Part shown: positions 2,976-4,847 of the stretch, one piece after another
Layout: each line of letters starts with the position of its first letter
How positions within the stretch are numbered: position 1 is the stretch's first letter
Source: Elainella saxicola E1
Lineage (GTDB): Bacteria; Cyanobacteriota; Cyanobacteriia; Elainellales; Elainellaceae
Direction: 5' to 3'
Length of the DNA stretch: 64,000 nucleotides
Assembly (NCBI GenBank): GCA_002796835.1
Contig: LUGL01000030.1
Location: 1-64,000 of the forward strand
Made by a program: the position numbers and the translations under genes
The notes under the pieces: model-generated
What the model was told of the DNA's origin: nothing
Database searches by the model: none
Seen by the model: only the letters and a program-made list of their open reading frames with translations

Positions 2976-3681
2976 AAGCTGATCAAGTGCTACACGACAC
3001 TGTATCCATCAAAATAGCATTCACTAGTTTGGATTGGCACCCCTTCTATTCAGAGTCAACATCTTATCAGTAACCTCATATCTTTTTTGATACAACCAGA
3101 GGTAAGCTTCAGTCCGCTTTTCTACATGGGAGCAAGCAGCATAACTAGATATTCACTGGCAGATCTGCCGGATAACACCCTGCTTGCTCTAAGATTATCC
3201 GGCAGATCTGCCGGATAATACCCAAATTTTAACGAATTAAACAGAAACTTTGCAGGTTAAGTCTGGGAATTTGGGGTGTTATCCGTCACATTTGATAGTT
3301 AATCACGGTGATTGGGGTTCTTATCCATCATTTTCGCTGGATAACACCCTCTATCCCGGAGTTATTTCGCATTATCCCATGTCCCAATCTCAACCACCTC
3401 GCCTGCTCAATCGAGCCAGATAGTCAATTTGGCTCAAGCATTTCAGCCTTCAAACCAAAGAAAAGGCAAAATCCAATCGCCCCATTGGAAACCGTCACAA
3501 AATATTGACAAAGCCATTACTATGCTTGTGTTCGATCGAACTTTCCCCTATGCTAATAAATGCTGGTTTTCCAAACGAATGACCAGTAGACAAGCTGAAG
3601 GCTTGGTCGCTGATTAAGAGTGTTGGTCGCACTCCTAACCAGCTAGCCTACACCCCCTGATAGAGGCAGAGGGCATTGGTT
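2976..3681. other. Gene-poor accessory spacer with operator-like repeats
   Basis: About 700 bases between the Dcd-like membrane gene and the small-protein gene hold no convincing coding sequence. Short open frames here overlap the repeats and have no ribosome site or recognisable product. The right half carries the palindrome cluster listed separately. Promoters for the minus-strand pair should lie just above 2976, but I cannot point to a clear -35/-10. Confidence 0.5.
3158..3349. repeat. Cluster of TTATCCGG/GGATAACACCC palindromic repeats
   Basis: Positions 3195-3218 are a perfect 24-base palindrome with half-site TTATCCGGCAGA. The same GGCAGATCTGCCGGATAACACCC-type sequence without the left arm is at 3158-3180. 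The shorter core GGATAACACCC recurs at 3339-3349, appears inverted as GGGTGTTATCC at 3274-3284, and in variant form (GGGTTCTTATCC) at 3315-3326. The arrangement of direct and inverted cores within 190 bases resembles a multi-site operator or a site-specific recombination region. No protein binding it can be named from the window. Confidence 0.7.
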
Positions 3682-3780
3682 GTTGATCATGATAATCGAT
3701 CAACGCCTCGCTAATGCTGAAAAAGTGGTATAGGGAGCCAAGCCTTGAGCTTTTCTTCTCAGCTCAAATACTAGCGAGGC
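3682..3780 (+). promoter_or_regulatory. Structured leader that buries a ribosome site
   Basis: Two adjacent stem-loops precede the start codon at 3788. The first pairs GTTGATC (3682-3688) with GATCAAC (3698-3704). The second starts on the next base: GCCTCGCTA (3705-3713) pairs perfectly with TAGCGAGGC (3772-3780), and an inner hairpin pairs TTGAGCT (3745-3751) with AGCTCAA (3761-3767). The only Shine-Dalgarno-like GAGG (3776-3779) is inside the outer stem. This suggests translational control by RNA folding. It matches no riboswitch class I know. Confidence 0.5.
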
Positions 3781-3787
3781 AATCATT

Positions 3788-3985
3788 ATGACTACAGAGT
3801 TCAACGAACTGCTGCCCGTTTCGCCTACGGATAAATCCCAGATTTGGATTATTGGCACCAGAGAACAGGTACTCCACACGATCAACGAATTCTACGTCAA
3901 ACGAATCGCGACCGATCGCGTCAAATTTACGCCAATCATCCCTGCCCCTTTTGAAGGTAAATATATGTCAGTATTAATACGTTAG
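3788..3985 (+). CDS. Small conserved-looking hypothetical protein (65 aa)
   Basis: I do not recognise a named family. The 65-residue soluble product reads as a compact, well-formed protein: an N-terminal ELLPVSPTDKSQIWIIGTRE segment, an amphipathic helix QVLHTINEFYVKRIATDR, then FTPIIPAPFEGKYMSVLIR. There is no membrane segment or signal peptide. Codon choice with HIP1-like CGATCG matches chromosomal genes. It starts at an ATG eight bases after the GAGG within a stable stem-loop (3705-3780), and a hairpin follows the stop. These flanking structures make it more credible as a gene than most short frames nearby. Confidence 0.6.
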   Translation: MTTEFNELLPVSPTDKSQIWIIGTREQVLHTINEFYVKRIATDRVKFTPIIPAPFEGKYMSVLIR

Positions 3986-4005
3986 AAACGTGAGTTAGAT
4001 CATCA

Positions 4006-4049
4006 GTGAGATCGGCTTCTGCTCTATCTGAGGAAGAAACCGATCTCAC
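4006..4049. terminator. Hairpin between convergent genes
   Basis: GTGAGATCGG (4006-4015) pairs perfectly with CCGATCTCAC (4040-4049). It lies between the stop of the small plus-strand gene and the 3' end of the minus-strand methyltransferase, so it could end both transcripts. There is no clear T-run on either side, so factor-independent termination is only possible, not shown. Confidence 0.45.
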
Positions 4050-4082
4050 AAAATGATATGCCAAAGTTATGAGTACTGAATA

Positions 4083-4847
4083 TTATTGAAGTGCCGTCCT
4101 CTTATAGCACCACAAGGTATTGTGCCATACTGCGGTTGGATCGAGCACCTGTTCGCCTTGCAGCGTTTCAGCCACATAGCCACGCGCCAACAGTTCATCT
4201 CTCACCCCGATCTGCTCTTCCGGTCCGTGCAATTCAATATAAATCGCAGGCGATGCAGAATCGAGTAATTTGGCGGCTCCACGTAGGACTGCTGCTGCTG
4301 CTCCTTCCACATCAATTTTCATCACGTCAGGCACGGTATGAGCGCTGTCAATAAAAGTATCGAGGCGCAGCGTTCTCACTTCTATGTTCTCTGCCCCAGC
4401 AACCTGATAGGTTTTTTCTTGTTCAACCAGTTTTCCTTGGGTCGAATGCGCTGGAGAGAAGGCAAAAACTGCGGTGCCATCCCGGTCAGAGGCCGCAGCA
4501 GGCACAACTTTAACCTGGATAAGATTATTGAGCATCGCGTTACGCTCAGTACACCTTGCTAATTCCACCATGGGTTCAAACGAGATCACTTTTCCAGAAG
4601 CGCCGACACAGCGAGCAAAGAGAAGCATCATCTGGCCCCGGTTGGCACCAATATCAAACACCGTCATGCCCGATCGAATCTTCTTTTGTAAAAAGCGAAA
4701 GTTAGCTGCGTCATCGCCCATGGAATAAGTGAAACCCATACCAGGTTCGACCTGATATCGAAATCCCTGGAGAGGACCAAACAGAACAGGGCGGATGCTG
4801 CCAAAAGGATAGAGATTACGAACGATCGTCTGATGGAGTGTCGGCAT
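4083..4847 (-). CDS. FkbM-family SAM-dependent methyltransferase
   Basis: Predicted to O-methylate a sugar or other group during surface-glycan synthesis; the substrate is unknown. The Rossmann-type SAM site is clear: MTVFDIGANRGQMMLLFA (motif I), VISFEPM (motif II) and the FkbM hallmark DVMKIDVEGAAAAVLRG, followed by a YIELHG strand. I place the start at the ATG at 4847, giving 254 residues with an AGGA upstream. A longer frame from 4985 would run back into the neighbouring gene and adds an unrelated N-terminus. It is last in a long minus-strand polysaccharide cluster and lies 67 bases after a second FkbM gene with only distant similarity, so the two probably methylate different positions. 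Confidence 0.85.
   Translation of the reverse strand: MPTLHQTIVRNLYPFGSIRPVLFGPLQGFRYQVEPGMGFTYSMGDDAANFRFLQKKIRSGMTVFDIGANRGQMMLLFARCVGASGKVISFEPMVELARCTERNAMLNNLIQVKVVPAAASDRDGTAVFAFSPAHSTQGKLVEQEKTYQVAGAENIEVRTLRLDTFIDSAHTVPDVMKIDVEGAAAAVLRGAAKLLDSASPAIYIELHGPEEQIGVRDELLARGYVAETLQGEQVLDPTAVWHNTLWCYKRTALQ

Follow-up and report, generated by a model that had tools for sequence, protein, structure and literature searches.

Where antisense RNAs control IS10 or the copy number of plasmids, kissing loops determine specificity (incompatibility), and multicopy inhibition occurs. To our knowledge, antisense systems with orthogonal loops occur in handfuls of paralogues or across plasmids. Here we describe a locus with a small open reading frame (ORF) and its leader in the cyanobacterium Elainella saxicola E1 (GCA_002796835.1; contig LUGL01000030.1, positions 1–64,000). 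This whole stretch of 64,000 nucleotides (nt) is referred to as the window, and the locus at 3682–3985 was singled out in an earlier note for its stem-loops. Comparison of copies within and between genomes suggests that it is probably one member of a dispersed cyanobacterial gene family in which an antisense RNA, encoded in cis and bearing address-like loops, controls each copy. Control of this type is already known; its scale, the diversification of the loops, the host group and the protein would set this case apart as a new form of it.

The closest parallels are found among type I toxin-antitoxin systems. Ibs/Sib and ZorO/OrzO combine, as proposed here, a small ORF, an antisense RNA and a few variable bases that separate near-identical paralogues. 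A 3-nt variable region of OrzO, V1, is reported to decide which antisense RNA represses which paralogue, Ibs/Sib to have two recognition sites (PMC3919570), and both Ibs/Sib and pIP501 to use two loop pairs (PMC6562991). The present locus differs in that its antisense RNA is predicted only, its copies reach about 60 per genome, and its protein is not hydrophobic (grand average of hydropathy −0.06, maximum 19-residue Kyte-Doolittle value 0.61), so the 65-residue protein departs from the small hydrophobic membrane toxin that is usual, though not universal, in type I systems. MsoT1/MsoA1 of Microcystis is likewise a cyanobacterial small ORF (63 amino acids) with an antisense RNA; MsoT1 is reported to have two predicted membrane helices and its antisense RNA to cover the 3' end of the gene, whereas the RNA predicted here would cover the 5' leader (PMC12390103). 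Unlike the genes under antisense control in plasmid replication and IS10, the ORF matches neither a family of replication proteins nor one of transposases.

Leader helices and the strands they favour

The features of the locus, in order of position, are the following (SD, Shine-Dalgarno; P1, a long-range helix of the leader).

3525–3554, plus: promoter-like elements of the mRNA (CTTGTG at 3525–3530, 18 nt, TATGCT at 3549–3554), among the least variable columns of 52 upstream regions of the own genome; presumed start site
3555–3682, minus: predicted antisense RNA that would span hairpins B and A together with the 5' strand of P1, and possibly hairpin 1 too, based on the strand preference of hairpin A and the minus-strand −10 element; both ends are guesses
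3562–3589, strand unspecified: hairpin 1 (CTGGT...ACCAG), close to where the predicted mRNA begins, present in most own copies
3594–3601, plus: P1 5' strand, GCTGAAGG here, consensus GCTTAAGG; partner 3743–3750, with one G.G mismatch in the window copy
3609–3643, minus: hairpin A, arms 3609–3622 and 3630–3643, folding best as minus-strand RNA
3623–3629, strand unspecified: loop A, hypervariable, reading TTGGTCG on plus; 117 copies gave 83 different loops
3653–3673, strand unspecified: hairpin B, arms 3653–3659 and 3667–3673; 86.1% paired, no strand preference
3660–3666, strand unspecified: loop B, hypervariable, reading ATAGAGG on plus; 99 copies gave 78 different loops
3682–3704, plus: first hairpin of the earlier note, GTTGATC (3682–3688) with GATCAAC (3698–3704); poorly conserved
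3689–3694, minus: predicted minus-strand −10 element, TATCAT on minus, in the loop of the 3682–3704 hairpin; TA..AT invariant
3705–3713, plus: SD helix 5' strand, GCCTCGCTA; partner 3772–3780
3743–3750, plus: P1 3' strand, CCTTGAGC; pairs with 3594–3601
3745–3767, plus: nested 7-bp hairpin, TTGAGCT (3745–3751) with AGCTCAA (3761–3767); not conserved
3772–3780, plus: SD helix 3' strand, TAGCGAGGC, with GAGG inside; partner 3705–3713
3788–3985, plus: 65-residue protein of an unannotated multicopy family, ATG at 3788; 63 matches in the own genome

The earlier note had reported three pairings in this leader—the first hairpin, a 9-bp stem and the hairpin nested within it—and held them to be unlikely by chance. 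All three are present in the sequence, the GAGG preceding the ATG at 3788 does lie within the 3' arm of the 9-bp stem, and the ORF at 3788–3985 encodes 65 amino acids. The three are not equally well supported. The covariance analysis that the note had proposed supports the 9-bp stem, or SD helix: across 35 chosen leaders, 95.6% of its cells are paired and two-sided changes occur at 4 of the 9 pairs, counts which describe SD-helix-bearing leaders, the own-genome subgroup without the helix having been left out. Compensatory variants include CCTCGCTAATG/CATTAGCGAGG, CCTTGCTAATG/CATTAGCAAGG, CCTCGCTGATG/CATCAGCGAGG and CCTTACTGAAG/CTTCAGTGAGG, and because of such changes across relatives the SD-burying helix is, on comparative grounds, a real structure of the mRNA. 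The segment 3660–3830 also folds at −54.2 kcal/mol against a shuffle mean of −43.0 (standard deviation 3.9, z −2.87), a value attained by 1 of 200 shuffles. The other two pairings fare less well. The complement of the nested hairpin is missing, as judged by eye, from most aligned leaders, and the hairpin uses bases of the conserved P1 3' strand; the 3682–3704 hairpin, scored as two pieces, is 56% and 68% paired. The SD helix itself is not universal, scoring above threshold in 65 of the 107 copies tested (20 of 47 in the own genome).

A second helix of the mRNA, P1, is paired in 99.3% of cells of the same 35-row alignment, with a two-sided change at one of its 8 pairs. As P1 and the SD helix cross, the two would either form a pseudoknot or alternate. 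In an alignment of 52 own copies, from which four with broken leaders were omitted, the region from the promoter-like TACGCTTGTG...TATGCTA through the ATG is conserved apart from two short stretches that are hypervariable. A transcription start downstream of 3705, which the earlier note had named as fatal to its proposal, finds no support in the sequence: the promoter-like elements, and with them the presumed start, lie upstream, at about 3525–3554.

The helices of the leader appear to favour different strands: P1 and the SD helix the mRNA, hairpin A a minus-strand RNA, and hairpin B neither. From a pool of 132 distinct leaders, hairpin A was matched in 114, and in all 114 it is more stable on the minus strand (mean −19.5 against −12.5 kcal/mol). 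Eight of the 18 unmatched leaders were scored with other patterns and favour minus as well, bringing the total to 122 of 122; the remaining 10, several of them truncated, yielded no hairpin A by those patterns. The preference stems from A.C oppositions on the plus strand that become G.U pairs on the minus strand at several positions of the hairpin. Hairpin A shows 57 A.C and 6 G.U on plus in the 35-row alignment, and 53 and 1 under a stricter cut of 31 distinct arm pairs (the 50 'distinct arm pairs' of the energy test partly include loop bases). The corresponding counts are 0 and 7 for P1 and 1 and 14 for the SD helix, and 9 and 34 for the 3682–3704 hairpin, which leans to plus. The minus-strand alignment dropped four of the 35 rows (L014, L016, L020, L087), and comparison within a single alignment agrees at 35 and 31 rows. 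Since P1 and the SD helix display the opposite A.C/G.U pattern, regional mutational bias does not explain the pattern of hairpin A. A hairpin A pattern, itself built from these subgroups, finds 25 sites in the own genome, all of them preceding a copy of the 65-residue ORF, and none when reversed as a control. A subfamily with unlike leader sequence in the closed genome G030 also prefers minus, in all 9 matched of the 10 loci scanned.

It is because hairpin A folds better on the opposite strand, and bears a hypervariable loop, that we propose control by an antisense RNA. On the minus strand, directly upstream of hairpin B, all 35 aligned rows carry the motif TA..AT (AT..TA on plus), although the stem around it is variable, and a wider pattern scan located TANNAT in 93 of 117 copies. 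Such invariance matches the expectation for a −10 element, which we predict here. Hairpin 1 is a possible 3' end (terminator) of the predicted minus-strand RNA.

Hypervariable loops

Hairpins A and B both lie upstream of the interval considered in the earlier note, and their loops are mostly 6–8 nt long. Loop A could be obtained from 117 leaders and loop B from 99. In 14 close within-genome pairs, with at most 2% leader divergence outside the loops, 44% of loop A and 50% of loop B positions differ, against 12% of fourfold-degenerate sites; 13 of these pairs come from the closed genome G029 and one from G014, and they are not independent. Some G029 copies are near-identical over the leader yet differ in one or both loops. 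Loops can also change as blocks. One case is loop B in L137 and L157, two G014 copies with 98.9% identity across 274 nt of their upstream flanks.

Terminal loops often drift, and the loops might simply be unconstrained or hypermutable, without a role in recognition, the remainder of each copy being homogenised by gene conversion or recent spread. Near-identity of copies outside the loops is what such drift would leave, but loop divergence in the closest pairs exceeds that of fourfold-degenerate sites. A positional pattern is also retained: the second base is T in 81% of distinct A loops, and the distant G030 subfamily again has loops of this pattern, such as CGTCCAA and CTACCAA. We consider free drift quite unlikely. 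Motifs of the YUNR type are reported in a review to form U-turns that can speed the contact of sense and antisense RNAs, and to be found in contact loops (PMC6562991). The plus-strand A loops contain YUNR in 51% of distinct cases, against 17% after shuffling.

Several other uses of the loops were considered and rejected. Pairing of loop A with loop B of the same copy has no support (p by permutation 0.68 among own copies and 0.78 over the full set), and no cis partner covarying with the loops is found among the listed top pairs. An excess of reverse-complementary loops, which could signal inversion or kissing between copies, is accounted for by positional composition. As a separate observation, the A loops of L097 and L158 in G014 are exact reverse complements of those of L137 and L157 (TTACCAG and CTGGTAA), as if inverted, in copies that are closely similar. 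Mimicry of an anticodon arm fits the geometry, but several loops would yield anticodons that are not normal in bacteria.

The loops also bear on whether the leader acts in cis alone, as a riboswitch, a protein-binding leader or a thermometer, with minus-strand folding and loop variation being incidental. A covarying SD helix crossed by a conserved P1 is indeed in keeping with cis-regulators. This explanation, which we regard as unlikely, leaves without an account the minus preference of hairpin A in all copies found and the evolution of loops faster than fourfold-degenerate sites; ligand pockets are normally conserved. The SD helix falls below threshold in 42 of 107 copies, and Rfam 15 has no match at gathering score in the window, the region 3300–4100 giving one miRNA hit at chance level (E 4.1). 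What stands of the controlled leader suggested in the earlier note is the hiding of the ribosome-binding site, which covariation supports. Its ligand, protein or thermometer version is not the best reading, given the missing Rfam match, the failure of 27 of 47 own copies to reach the SD-helix threshold, and the preference for the opposite strand of hairpin A, which has a hypervariable loop and is the feature that changes least among copies.

A proposed antisense control

The comparison of copies shows that the gene family exists, that P1 and the SD helix belong to the plus strand and hairpin A to the minus strand, that the loops are hypervariable and that the protein is under purifying selection. 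From these we infer an antisense RNA with its ends, a loop-loop contact, a P1/SD switch and, possibly, some toxin-like or selfish-element-like purpose. The plus strand would give an mRNA with a leader of about 230 nt closed by P1, in which the SD sequence can be hidden by the 3705–3713/3772–3780 helix. The minus strand would give a short RNA that starts near 3682 and contains hairpins B and A. The complementary loops A and B of both RNAs would touch first, in a kissing contact, and as pairing spreads the minus-strand RNA would cover the P1 5' strand and break P1; the SD-hidden state would then be favoured and the small protein would not be made. As recognition would rest on two short loops, each copy could hold an address of its own, with the loops diversified and the scaffold fixed. 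The role of loops A and B as addresses is proposed by analogy with described antisense systems.

A number of observations weigh against this model. The antisense RNA is itself a prediction from sequence, and no convincing minus-strand −35 element was seen by eye. Hairpin B displays no strand preference in the 35-row alignment (16 A.C, 19 G.U), and of 97 energy comparisons minus is lower in 41 and plus in 55. YUNR is weak in the minus-strand A loops (34% against 21% shuffled, with a shuffle maximum of 35%) and in B loops (31% against 17%). Addresses are not always private: loop A TTTGGCCG is common to 7 of 12 G029 copies, three of which also have the same loop B, two other G029 copies share both loops, and at least one loop is shared in 7 of the 14 closest pairs. 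For the 42 of 107 copies that lack the SD helix by the threshold, the antisense RNA would need another mode of action. Single relatives of the family, or cousins, in G019 and G013 (L188, L176), whose most stable minus-strand hairpins favour minus, add little, having been chosen as the most stable windows and holding plus-preferring hairpins too. Finally, the copies are related, and the counts given above overstate the number of independent events.

The protein family and its genomic setting

Some of the 63 own-genome matches to the 65-residue ORF are partial. A scan of the collection for this ORF gave 26 loci, several within the same genomes; at the level of the order, at least one match occurs in 25 of 36 genomes, the own genome counted, and at the level of the class the ORF was found in 9 of 145 sampled genomes, all 9 from the same family. 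The mean nonsynonymous divergence (dN) is 0.064 and the mean synonymous divergence (dS) 0.964 over 272 pairs among 25 own copies of equal length. The resulting dN/dS of 0.066 indicates that the encoded protein is under strong purifying selection.

The AlphaFold2 model has a beta-alpha-beta arrangement with a mean pLDDT of 80. Neither Pfam nor NCBIfam matches the ORF, PHROGs gives a weak hit (E 0.017), and the best PDB sequence match (E 0.0045) is without a passing stretch. A fold search of PDB with the model gave no hits at E ≤0.001 (best E 0.34), a profile search with the cousin proteins found none, and PADLOC found none. No description of the small-gene family was recognised in listings of open PMC papers. 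Cousins, small proteins of like pattern, are found next to the integrase genes of G013 and G019, and in G030 they occur repeatedly. Since profile comparison of the family with the cousins gives a probability of 76% and E 2e-5 (one of nine cousin rows being short by a residue), their kinship is likely, though not certain. The loci of G030 (L194, L198, L201–L208) were seen to form a second small-protein subfamily with a different leader, again with two hypervariable loops. In three loci (L023, L065, L084) an in-frame insert SET(L/F)RE follows IATD or LTDD within the ORF, perhaps a small palindromic repeat.

Some copies have an integron-type integrase nearby, a setting reminiscent of integrons. 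In L171 (G000) and in L172 and L173 (G014) its gene has the same orientation as the ORF and stops 323–369 nt short of it, and integrase genes or remnants also lie near copies in G029, G004, G001 and G011. Among 18 chosen integrase loci, 9 have the 65-residue ORF and 3 more a cousin, and of the 6 that remain, 4 are cut off by a contig edge. Cousin and integrase gene converge in G013 and in L198, a locus of G030. Most own copies, on the other hand, have no integrase match nearby. A 200-residue integrase piece matches TIGR02249 (E 5.7e-69, 232.9 bits), below the whole-protein cut-off of 265. Full-length integron-type integrase ORFs of 321–325 residues were noticed in several cyanobacteria of the order (L171 in G000:C8, L172, L173, L175–L177), some beside family members. 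No attC sites or cassette arrays were noticed in the stretches read, those beside integrases included, where no systematic search was made. The integrase may move the element, or the element may stabilise the integrase.

The integrase link allows for the minus-strand RNA to be a trans-acting guide for DNA or RNA recognition, working with the 65-residue protein or the integrase and carrying guide segments in its loops; it would then work like bridge RNAs without being a member of them. A guide would fit the fixed scaffold with its two hypervariable loops, the dispersal of the copies, the neighbouring integrases in several genomes and the similarity among most G029 copies, which stops within a few bases of the stop codon. 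Against a guide, the own-genome loops have no excess of 5- or 6-mers shared with their flanks (no test below p 0.1), and positional dependence between loops and flanks is not evident: in 8 of 10 tests the top column pair does not exceed the highest value from 20 permutations, and the two exceptions, both at the left flank, exceed it slightly (0.83 against 0.78; 0.42 against 0.38), which relatedness could cause. In the own genome, 63 ORF matches stand against 6 matches to the integrase, of which several are fragments. We hold a guide function of any kind to be very unlikely, and its specific form, an RNA-guided tyrosine-recombinase mobile element in which a programmable guide steers the integrase and its 65-residue partner, to be highly improbable. 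The loop-flank tests, with their two marginal exceptions, argue against guidance to the present flanks and not against other targets. A conventional transposon was also rejected, on the evidence of where similarity ends: the left limit of similarity varies among G029 copies, which lack a constant left end, and the right end lies near the stop codon in most pairs and up to about 50 nt beyond it in a few.

Just 3' of the ORF, at 4006–4049, we observed an inverted repeat, GTGAGATCGG...CCGATCTCAC, which is not a typical terminator because no T run follows. Elsewhere in the window, two ORFs at the left edge (25–1529), identified by eye from their translations, are transposase-like and, after it, of the group II intron reverse transcriptase type, and the minus strand at 1664–2975 encodes adjoining dUTPase (PF00692) and dCTP deaminase-like (PF22769) genes.

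If the antisense control proposed here is true, dozens of antisense pairs on a fixed scaffold in one genome would amount to a library of RNA address pairs made by nature. It would allow a direct test of how antisense specificity evolves, and the family may supply orthogonal translation switches for cyanobacteria. The proteins would likewise form a family under antisense control in which no domain is recognised, and which has distant relatives in other cyanobacteria and a link to integron-type integrases.
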